64,000 nt of DNA from contig NZ_JACCBJ010000001.1 in NCBI RefSeq assembly GCF_013408745.1, forward strand, positions 558,001 through 622,000, given 5' to 3'. The notes below the pieces were generated by a model. That model saw nothing but the letters and a program-made list of their open reading frames with translations. It did no database searches and was not told the origin of the DNA. The DNA is from Leifsonia soli. GTDB taxonomy: Bacteria > Actinomycetota > Actinomycetes > Actinomycetales > Microbacteriaceae. Position 1 is the first letter of the stretch. The number at the start of each line of letters is the position of its first letter. Shown here one piece after another: positions 244-13,671 of this stretch. A program made the translations under genes and the position numbers.

Positions 244-1383
244 TCAGCGCGCCCAGCTGACCCCGAGCGCCGACTTCAGCGCGTACTGCGCCGCCCCGCG
301 GTAGGGGTGCTCTTGCGGAACCCGGGCGTACCGGAAGCTGAGCGGCATGGCCGCCTTGACGGGATGCCGGGCCGCCTCGGCGCGCAGGTGGCCGATGAAC
401 TCCGGCCCGAGGCGAGGCGCAGCACCGCCGAGCACGATGTTCGGGACGTCGAGCGCCGCGGCGACGAGCAGGAGGGCGCGGGCGAGCACGCGCGCGCCGT
501 CCGCGATCCGTTCCCGTGAGTCCGGAGCGGCGGCGAGGGCGGCGAGGTCGAGGGCCTCGAGGTCGGTGCCGTGGGGGAGTCCGAGCAGACTGGTCACCGA
601 GACGACCTCCTCGAGGCAGCCGCGGTTGCCGCAGGCGCAGAGCGGCGCTTCCGGCCCGAACAGCACGGGCACGTGGCCGATCTCGCCGGCGCGGTGGGCG
701 GCGCCGCTGACGACCTCGCCGTCGATGATGACGGCCGCACCCACTCCGGTGCTCAGTGAGACGAACAACTGGTTCGCCCCGAAATCGTCCGACGTGATCG
801 CGTCGGCGATCGCCTCCGCGTCGGCGTCGTTGATGAGGTGGATGGGCGCATCGACGATCCCGGAGAGCTCGCGTGCCAGGTCGACATCCGTCCATCCCAG
901 CTGCACCGACTCGCGGATCAGCGTGCCGTCGGCGATGCCGGGGACCTGGACCCCGACCGCCACGATCCGTGCCGAGGTGGAGGCGACCAGCCGTCGCGCG
1001 ACGGAGCGCACGTCCTCGAGGGACCCGGGGGTCGCCGCGCGGTGCGTGAGCGTGGCGAGCTCGTCGCCCAGCAGGTCGACGACCGCGCCGCGGACGAGTC
1101 CCGGCTGCACGAGCAGGGCGAGCAGGACGTGATTCTCGGCGGCGATGCGGAGGGTGGTCGCGCGCTTTCCCCCGGTGCTCTCGGCGAGCTGCCCTTCGAT
1201 CACGAGTCCGTCGGCGATGAGCCCGGCGAGCAGGGAGGAGACGGTCGCACTGGTCAGGCCGGTGCGTCGAGCGATCGCCGCCCGGGTCGCCGTGCCGTTC
1301 CCCGACAGCACGAGTTGCAGGGCGGTGGTGAGATTCCGCTCGCGGACGGCGGCCTGCGTCGCCTTGCCGTGCTCCTCTGCCAC
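244..1383 (-). CDS. ROK-family transcriptional regulator
   Basis: 379 residues, GTG start. Residues about 15-75 form a winged helix-turn-helix (TRAAIARRTGLTSATVSSLLAGL), followed by a ROK sugar-kinase-like domain. The ROK zinc signature is present as CACGNRGCLEE near residue 255, and a glycine-rich DGEVVSGAAHRAGEIGH segment precedes it. Length and architecture match NagC/XylR-type repressors that sense a sugar or sugar phosphate. It converges on the neighbouring GH3 gene end, so it may control sugar uptake or hydrolysis genes to the left of the window. Whether it kept kinase activity cannot be seen; proteins with this HTH are usually regulators. Confidence 0.9.
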   Translation of the reverse strand: MAEEHGKATQAAVRERNLTTALQLVLSGNGTATRAAIARRTGLTSATVSSLLAGLIADGLVIEGQLAESTGGKRATTLRIAAENHVLLALLVQPGLVRGAVVDLLGDELATLTHRAATPGSLEDVRSVARRLVASTSARIVAVGVQVPGIADGTLIRESVQLGWTDVDLARELSGIVDAPIHLINDADAEAIADAITSDDFGANQLFVSLSTGVGAAVIIDGEVVSGAAHRAGEIGHVPVLFGPEAPLCACGNRGCLEEVVSVTSLLGLPHGTDLEALDLAALAAAPDSRERIADGARVLARALLLVAAALDVPNIVLGGAAPRLGPEFIGHLRAEAARHPVKAAMPLSFRYARVPQEHPYRGAAQYALKSALGVSWAR

Positions 1384-1511: not shown

Positions 1512-3848
1512 ATGGACATCCTGAGCGCCGACAGCAGCTTCGCGAGCCTGTCGACAGCGGATCTGCTCGAGGCACGCGACCTCTACCACTGGCATCTCCT
1601 CAACAAGAAGAATGTGGTGGGCACCGCCGTCGGGCTCTCCCTGATCCGGAAGAGCGATCCGTGGCCGGTCGGCGAGCGGCCGGACGCCGGAGGAGGCGTC
1701 CGCGCAGCGACGCGGGCGCCGGTGCGCGGCGAGCGCACCTTCGACAACTCCGAGGTGCGGGACTACTCGCGCCCGTGCATCCTGGTGCTGGTCGACGCGT
1801 GGATCCCCGCGGACCGCTTCGGCTCCGGTGCGGAGCAGGAGTCGCCGGAAGAGCTGGTGCCGAGCACGCTGTACCTTCCCGACGGGCGCACGGTCCCCGT
1901 CTGCGTGGTCAAGGTGACGCCCTCCGCCCCCGACGCCTCCGTTCTTCCGCCGCGCACCTGGCCGGCGTCGCGCATCGGGGGTGGCTTCCCGCTCGTCAGC
2001 GAGAGCCAGGGCGTGCAGAACCTGGGCAGTGTCGGCACCCTCGTGACGGACGGGCACACCGTGTTCGCGCTGACGAGCCGTCACGTGACCGGGCCGGCGG
2101 GGAGCCCTGTCTCGAGCTTCCTCGGCGGATCGCTCTCCGTGGTGGGCCGGGCGAGTGCGCGCCACCTCACCCGACGGCCGTTCGCCGAGGTGTACCCGCA
2201 GTTCTCCGGCCGCCGCACCTTCGCGACGCTCGACGTCGGCCTGGTCGAGGTGGACGACGTCACGGCCTGGACGTCGCAAGGCTACGGACTCCCGGCGGCG
2301 GGCGCGCTCGCCGACCTCAACGAGCTGAACATCGGCGTCCGGCTCATCGGTGCGCGCGTTCGGGCCTTCGGAGCCGCCTCGGGCGAGCTGCACGGCCGTA
2401 TCGCGGCGCTCTTCTACCGCTATCGCAGCCGCGGGGGCTTCGACGACGTGACCGACGTCCTGATCGCGCCGGACCCCGAGGCGGCCGGGGATGCGGATCC
2501 GGGCGCGGGGGAGTCGCGCCCGGGCGATTCCGGCACGGTGTGGTACCTGGTTCCGGCCGGCGACGGCCCGCTCCGCCCGATCGCGGTGCAGTGGGGCGGG
2601 CAGGGCTTCCTGGGCGCGTCGGGGGCGGGCTTCGACTTCTCGCTCGCCACCAGTTTGAGCGCCATCCTGCGCCTGCTGGATGTGGAACTGGTCGTCGACT
2701 ACAACACCGGCCCCCAGCCCTACTGGGGGAAGACCGGTCACTACACGATCGCGACCTTCGCCTGCGAGCGGGCGACGGATGCGAAGCTCCGGACACTGCT
2801 GACCGCCAACACGGACAGGATCAGCTTCAGCCTCGCGGGCCTCGGGCACGGCACCATCGACACGACGACCGTCCAGGCCAAGAGGAACGGCGGCTTCGTC
2901 CCGCTCGCCGACGTGCCGGACCTGGTCTGGAAGAACCTGCCGGGCGCGGTGAAGGGCGGCCGCGACACCGCGTTCCGCACCGGGCCGGAGCATCCGAACC
3001 ACTTCGCCGACATCGATCAGCTCCTCGACGGGACGACGCTCCGGGCGCGCTGCGTCGACGATCCGGCGAACGTCTCCGTTCCGGTGTGGCAGGACTACTA
3101 CACGCGACTCGGGCACACCGAGCCCGACAAGCGGGGGCTGCTGCCGTTCCGCGTCCAGCAGTTCTTCGACGAGCTGGTCGCGGCGGTGCGGGCGAAGGAC
3201 GTCGTCCGGTACGTCGCCGCCGCTGGTCTCGTCGCGCACTACGTCGGCGACGCCTGCCAGCCGCTCCACGGCTCGTTCCTCGCCGACGGCCTCGAGGACG
3301 GCACGGGGAAGGGCGTCCACTCCGCCTACGAGTCCACGATGATCGACCGCCACGACGTCGAGATCGTGTCGGGGATCGCTCACGCGCTCGACGGAGTTGC
3401 CCTGCCGCCGCTGGTGACCTCCGGTACTGAGGCGGCGGTCGCCGTCGTCCGGCTCATGGACCGGTCGGCGACGGCCATCGATCCGCGCGCCCTCGTCAGC
3501 GCGTACGCCGCCGTCGCGACGAAGCCCGGCGACTCGACGGTCCGGGTCACGGACGCGCTGTGGACCGCGTTCGGCCCGCAGACGATCGGTGTACTCGCCG
3601 ACGGAGCGCTCGCCCTCGCGATGCTCTGGCAGAGCGCCTGGAAGGCGGCGGCAGGGGATGCCGCGTTCTCCTCCGGTGCCCTGGCCGCGGTCGACACGGC
3701 GGCGCTCCAGGCGTTGTACGAGGATCCGGCGTTCGTCCCGTCGCTCACCCTCGACGAGATCGGCCGGGTGCTGCAATCCGCGCCGTCGAGCGGACGCTCC
3801 CGCACCTCGGGCGCGCGTCGGAAGACCGCGCAAAAAAAGACCCCCTGA
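1512..3848 (+). CDS. Fusion: trypsin-like serine peptidase plus S1/P1 nuclease or zinc phospholipase C-like domain
   Basis: Start chosen at ATG 1512 because GGGGGA (1502-1507) lies just before it; ATG 1500 and GTG 1488 are in-frame alternatives. The product has 778 residues and no signal peptide. Residues about 30-395 look like a trypsin-like/Nal1-type peptidase: NVVGTAVGL, then His191 (TSRHV), Asp241 (ATLDVGLVEV) and Ser340 (RPGDSGTVW), a plausible catalytic triad. Residues 405-770 resemble S1/P1 nuclease and zinc-dependent phospholipase C: W405GKTGH410 has the spacing of P1 Trp1/His6; H576YVGD580ACQPLH586 has the spacing of P1 His116/Asp120/His126; a later HSAYE gives the HxxxE form seen in phospholipase C. 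The stop codon lies inside a terminator stem shared with the tRNA. I know no described function for this fusion; substrate and role are unknown. Confidence 0.85.
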   Translation: MDILSADSSFASLSTADLLEARDLYHWHLLNKKNVVGTAVGLSLIRKSDPWPVGERPDAGGGVRAATRAPVRGERTFDNSEVRDYSRPCILVLVDAWIPADRFGSGAEQESPEELVPSTLYLPDGRTVPVCVVKVTPSAPDASVLPPRTWPASRIGGGFPLVSESQGVQNLGSVGTLVTDGHTVFALTSRHVTGPAGSPVSSFLGGSLSVVGRASARHLTRRPFAEVYPQFSGRRTFATLDVGLVEVDDVTAWTSQGYGLPAAGALADLNELNIGVRLIGARVRAFGAASGELHGRIAALFYRYRSRGGFDDVTDVLIAPDPEAAGDADPGAGESRPGDSGTVWYLVPAGDGPLRPIAVQWGGQGFLGASGAGFDFSLATSLSAILRLLDVELVVDYNTGPQPYWGKTGHYTIATFACERATDAKLRTLLTANTDRISFSLAGLGHGTIDTTTVQAKRNGGFVPLADVPDLVWKNLPGAVKGGRDTAFRTGPEHPNHFADIDQLLDGTTLRARCVDDPANVSVPVWQDYYTRLGHTEPDKRGLLPFRVQQFFDELVAAVRAKDVVRYVAAAGLVAHYVGDACQPLHGSFLADGLEDGTGKGVHSAYESTMIDRHDVEIVSGIAHALDGVALPPLVTSGTEAAVAVVRLMDRSATAIDPRALVSAYAAVATKPGDSTVRVTDALWTAFGPQTIGVLADGALALAMLWQSAWKAAAGDAAFSSGALAAVDTAALQALYEDPAFVPSLTLDEIGRVLQSAPSSGRSRTSGARRKTAQKKTP

Positions 3849-3875: not shown

Positions 3876-3880
3876 ACCGG

Positions 3881-3954
3881 TTGCGGGGGCAGGATTTGAA
3901 CCTACGACCTCTGGGTTATGAGCCCAGCGAGCTACCGAGCTGCTCCACCCCGCG
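3881..3954 (-). tRNA. Initiator tRNA-fMet (CAT)
   Basis: The reverse strand folds as a full cloverleaf: acceptor CGCGGGG with CCCCGCA, anticodon arm CTGGG-CTCATAA-CCCAG, T loop TTCAAAT. The three consecutive G-C pairs beside the anticodon loop and the unpaired C1-A72 position are the marks of the initiator tRNA rather than the elongator. The 3' CCA is not encoded. Confidence 0.95.
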
Positions 3955-10593: not shown

Positions 10594-11790
10594 TCAGGGA
10601 GCCAGCGCCGCGAGCCGCCGTGCCGCCTCCTCGAGCACCTCCATCCGCTTGCAGAACGCGAACCGGACCAGGGATGCGGTGCGCGCCGCGTACTCGCCCC
10701 GGCTGAACGCGCCGAGCGGCACGGCGACGACACCGGCGAGCTCCGGCAGCCGCCGGCACAGCTCGACGCCCTCGGGGAAGCCGAGCGGCGCTGCGTCGGC
10801 GACAACGAAGTAGGTCCCGTCCGAGGGGAAGACGCCGAAGCCGGCCGCCGAGAGCCCGGCGGAGAGCACGTCGCGCTTGTGGGCGAGAGCGTCGGCGATG
10901 CCGGTGAAGTAGGCGTCCGGCAGCCGGAGTCCCGCCGCGATCGCCGGCTGGAACGGCGCCCCGTTCACGTAGGTGAGGAACTGCTTCACGGCGAGGACGG
11001 CGGTGACGAGCTCGGGAGGCGCCGTCAGCCAGCCGACCTTCCATCCGGTCGTGTTGAAGGTCTTCCCGCCGGACGAGATCGCGATGGTGCGCTCGCGTGC
11101 GCCCGGCAGGGACTCGAGGGGGATGTGCTCCGGCCCGAACGTGAGGTGCTCGTAGACGGAGTCGGTGATGATCACAGCGTCGTGCCGTTCGGCCAGCTCG
11201 ACGACGGTCGTGAGCGTCTCGCGGTCGAGCACCGTTCCCGTTGGATTGTGCGGCGTGTTCACGAGGATGGCGCGCGTGCGGTCGGTCACCGTCTCGCGCA
11301 GCCGGTCGAGGTCCGGCCGGAACGCCGGGGGCTCCAGCGGCACGGTGCGGTGGACGCCGCCCGCCAGGGCGATCACGGCGCCGTACTCGTCGTAGTAGGG
11401 CTCGAAGGTGACCACCTCGTCGCCCGGTTCGAGCAGGGCGAGCAACGTCGCTGCGATGGCCTCCGTCGCCCCCGCGGTGATGAGCACCTCGCGGTCCGGG
11501 TCGAGGTCGAGACCGTAGAAGCGCTTCTGGTGCTCTGCGACGGCCAGACGCAGGTCGGCGATGCCCATCCCGGGCGGATACTGGTTCTCGCCGGCGCGGA
11601 TGGCGGCCACCGCGGCATCCAGCACGGCGGCGGGGCCGTCCTCGTCCGGGAAACCCTGACCGAGGTTGATCGCCCCCGTGCGTGCCGCCAGCGCACTCAT
11701 CTCGGCGAAGATCGTCGGCCGCACGGAGCCGTCCGCCCCGAGCAGCCCTGCACCAGCGGCGGCGCGCCGCCAGCCTCCCGTGATCGTCAT
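10594..11790 (-). CDS. PLP-dependent class I/II aminotransferase
   Basis: 398 residues. Fold-type I features: AINLGQGFPDEDGP at the N-terminus, NTPHNPTGTVL, ITDSVYEHL and the PLP-lysine region SSGGKTFNTTGWKVGW, with a final Arg in SLVRFAFCK. The NLGQGFPDE entry and NTTGWKVGW active site resemble the YbdL/kynurenine-aminotransferase branch that uses methionine, glutamine or aromatic donors; actinobacterial DapC enzymes are close relatives, so the exact substrate is open. The gene is divergent from the HtrA-like protease gene. An omega-amidase-type enzyme is encoded nearby, and such pairs act on glutamine or methionine transamination products elsewhere; here this is only suggestive. Confidence 0.9.
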   Translation of the reverse strand: MTITGGWRRAAAGAGLLGADGSVRPTIFAEMSALAARTGAINLGQGFPDEDGPAAVLDAAVAAIRAGENQYPPGMGIADLRLAVAEHQKRFYGLDLDPDREVLITAGATEAIAATLLALLEPGDEVVTFEPYYDEYGAVIALAGGVHRTVPLEPPAFRPDLDRLRETVTDRTRAILVNTPHNPTGTVLDRETLTTVVELAERHDAVIITDSVYEHLTFGPEHIPLESLPGARERTIAISSGGKTFNTTGWKVGWLTAPPELVTAVLAVKQFLTYVNGAPFQPAIAAGLRLPDAYFTGIADALAHKRDVLSAGLSAAGFGVFPSDGTYFVVADAAPLGFPEGVELCRRLPELAGVVAVPLGAFSRGEYAARTASLVRFAFCKRMEVLEEAARRLAALAP

Positions 11791-11807
11791 AGGACAACGC
11801 TACGGCC

Positions 11808-11836
11808 TTACTCGCATCCAACCCATTGGGTACGTT
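11808..11836 (+). promoter_or_regulatory. Candidate sigma-70-type promoter of the HtrA-like gene
   Basis: TTACTC (11808-11813) and TACGTT (11831-11836) are separated by exactly 17 bases, about 100 bases before the start codon. The -35 box is weak; the -10 fits the actinobacterial TAnnnT consensus. Confidence 0.4.
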
Positions 11837-11937
11837 GGGGAGAGTCATCGACAGGCAGAAGGTCGCCCACAGCAACGGCAAATAGAACGCCCAGGTTCGC
11901 ATCCCAAGCTGTCTGTGCTTGGAAGGAGCAACACACC

Positions 11938-13671
11938 ATGACCGACACCCCGAACACCCCGGAGCCCGCGAAGCCCCAGCACGACGCCGACACCGACGCG
12001 GTCGTGGATGCTGCCGGCACTGAGAACACCGAGCACACCGAGGCAGCGGCCCCCGCGGCCCAGACCGAGACCCCCGCGGCGGCCCCCGCGGCCCCGACGG
12101 CTCCCGCGGAGCAGGCACCCGCGACGCAGCAGCCTGCGTCCGGCGCAGGCTGGACCGCTCCGGCGGCGCACACCGCGGGCGACCCCGGCGCGCAGCCGAC
12201 GGTGCCGCAGCCGACCGCCGCGCAGCCGACCGTTCCGCAGCCGACCGCCGCCCCGCAGCACCAGACCCAGCCCACGCAGCCCCAGCCCTACGGTCAGCCG
12301 TACGGCCAGCAGCAGCCGCACTACGGCAACGGCGCCTTCGGCCAGCCCGCAGGATACGGCCAGCAGCCGCAGCAGCCGCCCTACGCTCCCAACGCCCACC
12401 AGCAGGGCTACGCGGGCGCACCGGGCGCCCCCACCGCCACGGCCCCGGCGAAGCCCGCCAAGCGCGGCAGCACCGGCCTGATCATCGCGACGCTGGCCAT
12501 CGGCGCACTCGTCGGCGGCATCGCCGGCGCCGGAGCGGGCGTCGGCATCTACGCCGCCACCAACGGAGGCAACGCGACCATCAAGACCGTCTCCGGCCCG
12601 CAGAACATCACCGTGAACGACGCCAACGACGCCAGCACCATCACCGCGGTCGCCGCCAAGGCATCCCCGAGCGTCGTCACCATCTCGGTGAGCGCATCCA
12701 GCTCCGGCGGAACCGGCTCCGGCATCGTCCTGACCTCCGATGGCTACGTGCTCACCAACACGCACGTCGTGACGCTCGACGGCCAGGCGGCCAACGTGAA
12801 CGTGACGGTCACCGACAACGACGGCAAGATCTACACGGCCAAGGTCGTCGGCACAGACCCGACCACCGACCTCGCCGTCATCAAGCTGGACAAGGCGTCG
12901 GGCCTCACCCCGATCAGCTGGGGCGACTCGAGCAAGCTCAACGTCGGCAACACGACGGTCGCCATCGGCGCGCCGCTCGGCCTCTCCGGCACGGTCACCG
13001 ACGGCATCGTCAGCGCGCTCAACCGCAGCATCAGCATCGCCTCGTCGGCCGCTCCGAAGGACGACTCCAACAACGGTGGCGGCAGCCAGAACCCGTTCAA
13101 CTTCGACTTCCCCGGCCAGGGCGGTCAGCAGCAGCAGCAACAGCAGAGCTCCGGAACGATCTCGCTCCCGGTCATCCAGACCGACGCGTCCATCAACCCG
13201 GGCAACTCCGGCGGTGCGCTGCTCAACAGCAAGGGTGAACTGATCGGCGTCAACGTCGCCATCGCCAGCGCGGGCGGGTCGAGCTCCGACGGCTCGCAGT
13301 CCGGCAGCATCGGCGTCGGCTTCGCCATCCCGTCCAACCTCGCCAAGCGCATCTCCGACGAGATCATCAAGAACGGCTCCGCCTCGCACGGCCTCCTGGG
13401 CGCGTCGGTCACCGACGCGAGCACGGACAGCAAGGCGACGACCGTCGGCGCCCTGATCAAGAGCGTCACCGGCGGCGGCGCCGCGGCCGGAGCGGGCCTC
13501 CAGGCCGGCGACATCGTGGTGAACCTCGACGGCACCCCGATCACCGACGCGACCGACCTGACCGCTCAGGTCCGGGCGCACGCGGCCGGCTCGAAGGTGG
13601 ACGTCACCTACATCCGCGACGGCCAGACGAAGACCGCGACCGTCACGCTGGGGTCCCTCCCGGCGGAGTGA
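11938..13671 (+). CDS. HtrA/DegP-like membrane-anchored serine protease with PDZ domain
   Basis: 577 residues; AAGGAG (11923-11928) sits 9 nt before the ATG. Residues 1-170 are a low-complexity Ala/Pro/Gln/Thr tail including a repeated TVPQPTAAQP unit, predicted cytoplasmic. One membrane segment follows (LIIATLAIGALVGGIAGAGAGVGIY). The trypsin-like domain carries His (LTNTHVV), Asp (TTDLAVIKL) and Ser (INPGNSGGAL), and a Gln/Gly/Asn-rich loop interrupts it before the last part. A PDZ domain (GLQAGDIVVNLDGTPI) closes the protein. This is the standard actinobacterial PepD/HtrA layout: an outside protease for damaged or regulatory envelope proteins. The gene stands alone and ends at a strong hairpin. 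Confidence 0.95.
   Translation: MTDTPNTPEPAKPQHDADTDAVVDAAGTENTEHTEAAAPAAQTETPAAAPAAPTAPAEQAPATQQPASGAGWTAPAAHTAGDPGAQPTVPQPTAAQPTVPQPTAAPQHQTQPTQPQPYGQPYGQQQPHYGNGAFGQPAGYGQQPQQPPYAPNAHQQGYAGAPGAPTATAPAKPAKRGSTGLIIATLAIGALVGGIAGAGAGVGIYAATNGGNATIKTVSGPQNITVNDANDASTITAVAAKASPSVVTISVSASSSGGTGSGIVLTSDGYVLTNTHVVTLDGQAANVNVTVTDNDGKIYTAKVVGTDPTTDLAVIKLDKASGLTPISWGDSSKLNVGNTTVAIGAPLGLSGTVTDGIVSALNRSISIASSAAPKDDSNNGGGSQNPFNFDFPGQGGQQQQQQQSSGTISLPVIQTDASINPGNSGGALLNSKGELIGVNVAIASAGGSSSDGSQSGSIGVGFAIPSNLAKRISDEIIKNGSASHGLLGASVTDASTDSKATTVGALIKSVTGGGAAAGAGLQAGDIVVNLDGTPITDATDLTAQVRAHAAGSKVDVTYIRDGQTKTATVTLGSLPAE

Follow-up and report, generated by a model that had tools for sequence, protein, structure and literature searches.

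The gene on the forward strand at 1512..3848 of the window (the whole 64,000-nucleotide stretch of the Leifsonia soli genome that was analysed) encodes a single chain in which a serine protease domain of the NAL1 (NARROW LEAF 1) type is followed, after a linker of nearly constant length, by a metal hydrolase domain of the superfamily that includes the S1/P1 nucleases and the zinc phospholipases C (PLC). The hydrolase domain begins at an internal tryptophan, Trp405, which takes the place of the N-terminal Trp1 of those enzymes, and the residue before it covaries with a position in the putative substrate-binding segment of the protease. We consider it probable that the fused protein is a cleavage-activated hydrolase, that is, a one-chain zymogen. 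The original prediction for this DNA had named such a fusion, with a complete catalytic triad and an internal Trp that keeps the Trp1/His6 spacing, and all of these were confirmed at the very residues it gave. The gene and its protease half comprise the following features.

1512..3848, forward strand: whole fused gene, 778 amino acids from the ATG at 1512, a single open reading frame (ORF)
1536..2708, forward strand: NAL1-like chymotrypsin-fold protease domain, residues 9-399
2082..2084, forward strand: catalytic His191, kept in 292 of the 293 sequences with a residue there
2232..2234, forward strand: catalytic Asp241, kept in 305 of 305
2529..2531, forward strand: catalytic Ser340 (GDSG), kept in 324 of 325
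2592..2600, forward strand: Trp361-Gly362-Gly363, putative substrate-binding segment, assigned from the motif and the NAL1 alignment

An in-frame GTG at 1488 is an alternative start that would yield 786 amino acids. The fused gene is present as a single copy in the 3.9-Mb single-contig L. soli genome, and its closest named relative among the matches listed is from Leifsonia sp. 21MFCrub1.1 (98% identity). The relatives used here are the best 120 of 990, 324 and 738 matches in separate searches, some of them found twice; conservation counts refer to 402 aligned sequences including the query, the denominators being the sequences that cover the position. By their organism names, the fused-gene records come from Actinobacteria, Proteobacteria, Bacteroidetes, Acidobacteria and others. 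In a Pfam scan of the query, the matches to PF25819 (21.9 bits against a curated cut-off of 26.1), PF02265 (20.0 against 29.5) and PF00882 (15.9 against 26.8) all remained under the cut-off, and an NCBIfam scan returned no family; the assignment of the domains is therefore carried by fold and ligand evidence. PF25819 is carried, in precomputed annotation, by most of the best 120 of the 990 relatives. The PADLOC profile PDLC03017, named "trypsin-like", matches residues 11-752 with 190.6 bits, and the two halves of the protein match consecutive parts of it (positions 6-305, then 345-609, of 611), so that the profile describes this very architecture. Thus, the fused family has already been catalogued as a defence candidate, under a profile name. 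A word-matching search of the open PMC literature found no paper recognised as describing a one-chain protease-hydrolase fusion.

The His, Asp and Ser of the triad follow each other in fold order, and the complete triad is found in 291 of the 293 sequences that cover it. The solved NAL1 fold was matched across the whole protease domain (VIA-align on Foldseek candidates). From the motif and the NAL1 alignment, we take Trp361-Gly362-Gly363 to correspond to chymotrypsin Trp215-Gly216; position 363 lies two residues past the invariant Trp361, and its exact chymotrypsin number is presumptive. A search of viral structures gave 31 matches at E <= 0.001, the top two of which are unnamed or uncharacterised; the named ones among the remainder are mostly peptidases and polyproteins. 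By inspection, the N-terminus of the fused protein is hydrophilic and has no signal peptide, in agreement with the earlier proposal that the peptidase stands in the place of a signal peptide in a cytosolic protein. The second half of the protein and the linker that leads to it contain the following features.

2679..2723, forward strand: linker, residues 390-404, ending in Tyr404, the proposed P1 residue (the residue before the cut)
Immediately before 2724, forward strand: proposed cleavage point
2724..2741, forward strand: W405-G-K-T-G-H410, counterpart of the Trp1/His6 pair in mature S1/P1 nucleases and PLC
2724..3776, forward strand: S1/P1-PLC-superfamily metal hydrolase domain, about residues 405-755
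2910..2912, forward strand: Asp467, predicted metal ligand, Asp in 383 of 394
3000..3002, forward strand: His497, predicted metal ligand, kept in 401 of 401
3237..3269, forward strand: His576-x3-Asp580-x5-His586, predicted metal ligands, from conservation and alignment
3318..3332, forward strand: His603-x3-Glu607, predicted metal ligands, from conservation and alignment

The predicted model of the hydrolase domain is an all-helical fold that begins at the Trp1 equivalent, and residue 405 coincides, on superposition, with residue 1 in the solved structures of PLCs and AtBFN2 (VIA-align, Foldseek candidates). This agreement in fold speaks, indirectly, for the convergence of the metal ligands on which the original prediction depends. 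The Trp/His pair and both later ligand motifs align to P1 nuclease and AtBFN2; we take Asp467 and His497 to be the equivalents of Asp45 and His60 of P1 nuclease. The set of nine ligands (Trp1, His6, Asp, His, His-x3-Asp-x5-His and His-x3-[DE]) is complete in 360 of 368 sequences. Its ninth member is Glu607, at a position where AtBFN2 and P1 nuclease have Asp and where PLC has Glu. As to whether the domain is a nuclease or a phospholipase, the signs are divided: in one set of 24 sequences (A3), PF02265 matches 21 and PF00882 matches 8, but the ninth ligand is of the PLC type. Trp405 is kept in 323 of the 324 fused sequences, the exception (L012) reading X across much of the segment; the original prediction had leaned on this Trp, and the fused homologues do carry it. 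The linker 390-404 is 15 residues long in 321 of 322 fused sequences, unlike the stretch from Trp361 to Trp405, which varies between 42 and 47 residues. Residues 400-406 have a predicted local distance difference test (pLDDT) value below 50 in the predicted model. In its domain-initial Trp1, fold and ligand motifs, the Leifsonia protein is like the secreted zinc PLCs (Listeria PC-PLC, B. cereus PLC) and the S1/P1 nucleases. Secreted enzymes of this kind are processed by signal peptidase, and B. cereus PLC is made with a propeptide. Listeria PC-PLC is exported and processed by a separate metalloprotease, whereas the Leifsonia protein looks cytosolic and carries a protease of its own.

If the protease cuts between residues 404 and 405, the residue before the Trp should suit its specificity pocket. 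The covariation table comprised those 322 of the 402 aligned sequences that have Trp405, Ser340 and Trp361. P1 is aromatic (Phe, Tyr or His) in 215 of them, with Gly at position 363 in 204 and Ala in 11; it is Thr, Ser, Val or Ile in 106, where position 363 is Ala, Gln, Ser, Glu or Val and in no case Gly. The one sequence with Cys at P1 (P0234), which has Gly363 and is the sole non-aromatic case to do so, also has an extra residue before the Trp. By mutual information among 94 representatives, position 363 scored highest outside the linker; this measure could not separate ancestry, and the covariation was therefore redone on trees. The main tree had 318 of the 322 sequences as tips, with position 363 and the linker excluded from its construction; the alternative trees (one from the hydrolase only, one from the protease only without the pocket columns, and eight from random halves) had 287 to 318 tips. 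The 318-tip tree places the switch of P1 from an aromatic to a small residue on five branches; position 363 changes just eight times in this tree, and four of these changes fall on branches with a P1 switch. When branch coincidence was weighted by length, position 363 came out at the top of residues 1-393 (p = 9e-6; about 0.004 corrected), and it was again at the top in 10 of the 10 alternative trees (p from 3e-6 to 3e-4), and so in all 11 trees. With 35 control traits taken from the hydrolase domain, no pocket position did better than rank 7. Position 335, third by branch coincidence, was dropped as a candidate; its rank across the other trees runs from 2 to 308. The covariation suggests that the fused protease recognises the stretch before Trp405.

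The full NAL1 fold of the protease domain would also suit a bifunctional degradative enzyme whose protease half acts on other proteins, in the manner of plant NAL1 on TOPLESS-type corepressors, and whose hydrolase half needs no cut to be active. To our knowledge, plant NAL1 has no C-terminal hydrolase. It reportedly acts on transcriptional corepressors; according to the relevant part of one account, ZmNAL1a degrades the corepressor REL2 (PMC12915138). We hold such an enzyme to be quite improbable here, as it leaves the fixed 15-residue linker and the covariation of P1 with position 363 unexplained.

A second form of the hydrolase has no protease. Eleven sequences among the matches listed (P0121-P0130 and P0133) consist of the hydrolase domain alone behind 9-20 residues; they retain all nine ligands, and their named sources are all Leifsonia. 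One of them (P0133) starts without Met and may be incomplete. Loci with such protease-free versions are L033, L035 and L099-L101: L033 has an in-frame stop 12 bases before its start, and L035 has none within 120 bases upstream, which makes the start of L035 less certain. In the hydrolase tree, the ancestor of the protease-free sequences also includes the query and the fused Leifsonia copies (support 0.994); the protease was therefore probably lost from this form. Residue 404 is Leu in seven of the 11 and Ser, His, Tyr or Arg in one each, a variety that fits relaxed selection on P1 once the protease is gone. The Trp of these sequences would be either exposed by another protease or able to work internally. 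Retention of the Trp in these copies would be accounted for if some other cellular protease made the cut before Trp405, leaving the fused protease only as an inhibitor, scaffold or partial contributor. It is very improbable that this is so in the fused protein, where P1 tracks position 363 of the protease attached to it and is aromatic or Thr, Ser, Val or Ile in 321 of 322 sequences, as against mostly Leu in the 11 protease-free ones. A separate seven-member clade of single-domain sequences (P0220, P0222, P0228, P0229, P0230, P0233 and P0235) starts past the Trp/His segment and has Asn in place of Asp467; its metal site looks partly lost.

Several observations weigh against activation by cleavage and its use as we picture it. 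In a simulated-trait test, position 363 comes fifth by z, behind 404 itself, 337, 259 and 463, and ties for the lowest p (0.0017). P1 stays as it is in four of the eight changes at position 363, the switch at P1 is seen on only five branches of the main tree (three to six in the other trees), and the pocket set was chosen after the first covariation result had been seen. The protease-free form keeps its Trp internal, with no evident signal peptide or visible processing; no protease copy was detected in two whole genomes with this form (completeness not stated), and one protease-free pair has a ratio of nonsynonymous to synonymous substitution rates (dN/dS) of 0.16. In a chymotrypsin fold, the C-terminus and the active site of the same domain are far apart, so that self-cleavage in cis may be impossible. 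Around 50 loci, crude ORF clustering (2584 six-frame ORFs of at least 90 amino acids, which are not gene calls, with many loci cut by contig ends) revealed no recurrent partner, sensor or defence gene; just four clusters were common to four or more other loci, and these are SDR- and ABC-type by eye.

Moreover, covariation is a sign of contact, not of hydrolysis, and it fits equally well with a linker that is docked in the specificity (S1) pocket and stays uncut. Residue 404 would then be a pseudosubstrate, the two domains would inhibit each other until a conformational release, and Trp405 would remain internal, as it does in the protease-free form, and be kept for its indole. The relevant parts of a study of Listeria PC-PLC can be read both ways: on the one hand, the W1 indole is anchored in the active site, and W1F was the sole substitution without significant loss of activity; on the other hand, the main chain of W1 binds metal, and one residue added before W1 is reported, with reference to earlier work, to inactivate the enzyme (PMC10576769). 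The residue that matches Trp405 in solved PLCs and AtBFN2 is residue 1, and a triad intact in nearly every sequence exceeds what a docking module needs; we regard an uncut, docked linker as unlikely. As to the self-activation by a cut at Tyr404-Trp405 that had been predicted, then, recognition of the stretch before Trp405 by the protease gains support from the covariation of 404 with 363, while the internal Trp of the protease-free form speaks against the part that has the enzyme depend on the cut.

The starts of other superfamily members bear on whether position 1 has to be an N-terminus. Of 30 PF00882 loci found in the phylum, 13 read start codon-Pro-x4-His, six read start codon-x4-His with Phe, Glu, Arg or Ile as the second residue, four have a signal peptide ending before Trp (by eye) and seven have no or a doubtful pattern (L069, L072, L078-L081 and L083). 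The 19 start-spaced loci are L054-L058, L061-L065, L067, L068, L070, L073-L077 and L082. Removal of the initial methionine is expected before Pro, which gives a Pro1/His6 spacing equal to that of Trp1/His6; before Phe, Glu, Arg or Ile, the methionine should stay, and Met1/His6 again has the Trp1/His6 spacing. These classes were drawn up after the sequences had been inspected and are a lead, not a test. The pattern is in keeping with a superfamily whose members require an N-terminus at position 1. A wider proposal, to which we give slightly less than an even chance, is a one-gene immune zymogen activated by unmasking of its N-terminus, the protease cutting just ahead of the internal Trp and thereby making the alpha-amino metal ligand for the attached nuclease-type enzyme. 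The position-1 amine would then arise by several routes in the superfamily: through signal peptidase in secreted enzymes (Trp1), through the translation start in cytosolic proteins, whether methionine is then removed or not (Pro1-x4-His or Met1-x4-His), and through a fused protease (Trp405).

For the fused protein, we infer the following course of cleavage and activation. In a cytosolic one-chain zymogen, the NAL1-like protease domain would recognise the residue just before Trp405 and cleave between 404 and 405, either within its own molecule or in one next to it. The cut would free the N-terminal Trp that the metal site of the S1/P1-PLC hydrolase needs, and the hydrolase would be switched on. 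A trigger would let the protease act and thereby release the effector, which would most likely act against nucleic acid, as an immune or emergency device encoded by one gene; phospholipid would be a less likely substrate. If this is true, bacteria would have here a very simple way of activating an effector by proteolysis, with protease, lock and hydrolase in one protein; residue 363 should help to set the P1 preference, and a defence candidate known as a profile name would gain a mechanism.

Comparable systems are known. Tuck et al. 2025 describe trypsin-like proteases that activate a separately encoded pro-nuclease of the metallo-beta-lactamase fold in Hachiman and AVAST (PMC12799240). The Leifsonia protein is like the pro-nuclease pairs of Hachiman, AVAST, Lamassu and DRT and like the caspase-nuclease (canu) of that account in that a serine protease is linked to a hydrolase inactive until cut (here, proposed to be so), and it also shares with these pairs a cytosolic, nuclease-type effector and a modular spread among bacteria. 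However, in the relevant part of the account the nuclease is always a separate gene with the metallo-beta-lactamase fold and is unblocked by cuts in internal loops (after Ile in the tested Hachiman and AVAST cases), whereas the Leifsonia protein is one chain with the S1/P1-PLC fold, and the proposed cut would create an N-terminal metal ligand. Kaur et al. 2020 predicted trypsin-NucA systems, sometimes fused, and proposed a proteolytic cascade (PMC7159879). These too combine a trypsin-like peptidase with an endonuclease, but their NucA belongs to the HNH superfamily, several have transmembrane segments or EAD1, and the relevant section mentions no role for an N-terminal residue. Neither the S1/P1-PLC fold nor N-terminal unmasking appears in the relevant parts of the two accounts (PMC12799240 and PMC7159879). 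Thus, the earlier suggestion of a wholly new kind of protein has to be given up in view of the existing PADLOC profile and the published protease-activated pro-nucleases. What would set the Leifsonia protein apart, if its activation is as proposed, is the chemistry, a metal ligand made by exposing an N-terminal amine, which is absent from the relevant parts of the accounts of protease-activated immune nucleases.

The fused gene occupies a variable site in the genus, the known edges and alternative contents of which are listed here.

244..1383, reverse strand: ROK-type regulator (name read from sequence), upstream flank, conserved edge of the variable site
3879..3954, reverse strand: tRNA-Met (CAT), downstream flank, other edge of the variable site
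155-5798 of L107, 1936-6358 of L108 and 170-5216 of L109: Wadjet genes beside the ROK-type regulator

Among 28 genomes of the genus, three carry the fused gene, three the protease-free domain and the other 22 neither of the two; the ROK-type regulator is present in 21 of the 28 at E <= 1e-80. Of 199 family genomes sampled, that of L. soli alone has the fused gene. A PF02265 search of the order was positive in 0 of 198 genomes; the L. soli genome, which was included, was itself negative, so the fused copy is below the reach of that search. All three fused copies in the genus lie between the ROK-type regulator and the tRNA-Met. In eight other regions adjacent to the regulator, the fused gene is present in two (G369 and G367), the gap beside the regulator is empty in two (G368 and G359), and the gap in G373 holds a predicted membrane protein (by eye). 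The remaining three (G370, G358 and G356) have Wadjet genes on the gene's side of the regulator, with an isochorismatase-like gene (by eye) in between. The JetA and JetC genes of G370 (L107), JetB of G356 (L109) and JetD of G358 (L108) were identified by PADLOC and the other Jet genes by eye; in L107 and L109, the stretch from JetC to the regulator showed no JetD. The tRNA-Met stands at the far end of the Jet genes in G370 only, with none in the fetched stretch of G358 and G356.

Outside chromosomes, the fused gene was found in 0 of 50,697 phage records and in four of 72,556 plasmid records. The copy on a conjugative Sphingobium plasmid adjoins a ParE/ParD pair, an annotated anti-phage dGTPase and transposases; the neighbours on the other three plasmids are mixed, and the annotation breaks the gene into pieces on two of them. 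The context leans towards an accessory, mobile, defence-like single gene, and we consider a defence role about as probable as its opposite. Directly after the Sphingobium plasmid copy lies a gene with a CYTH domain (L110:12388-12924). Elsewhere in the window, an ORF at 10879-13671 appears, by eye, to encode an HtrA/DegP-like serine protease.

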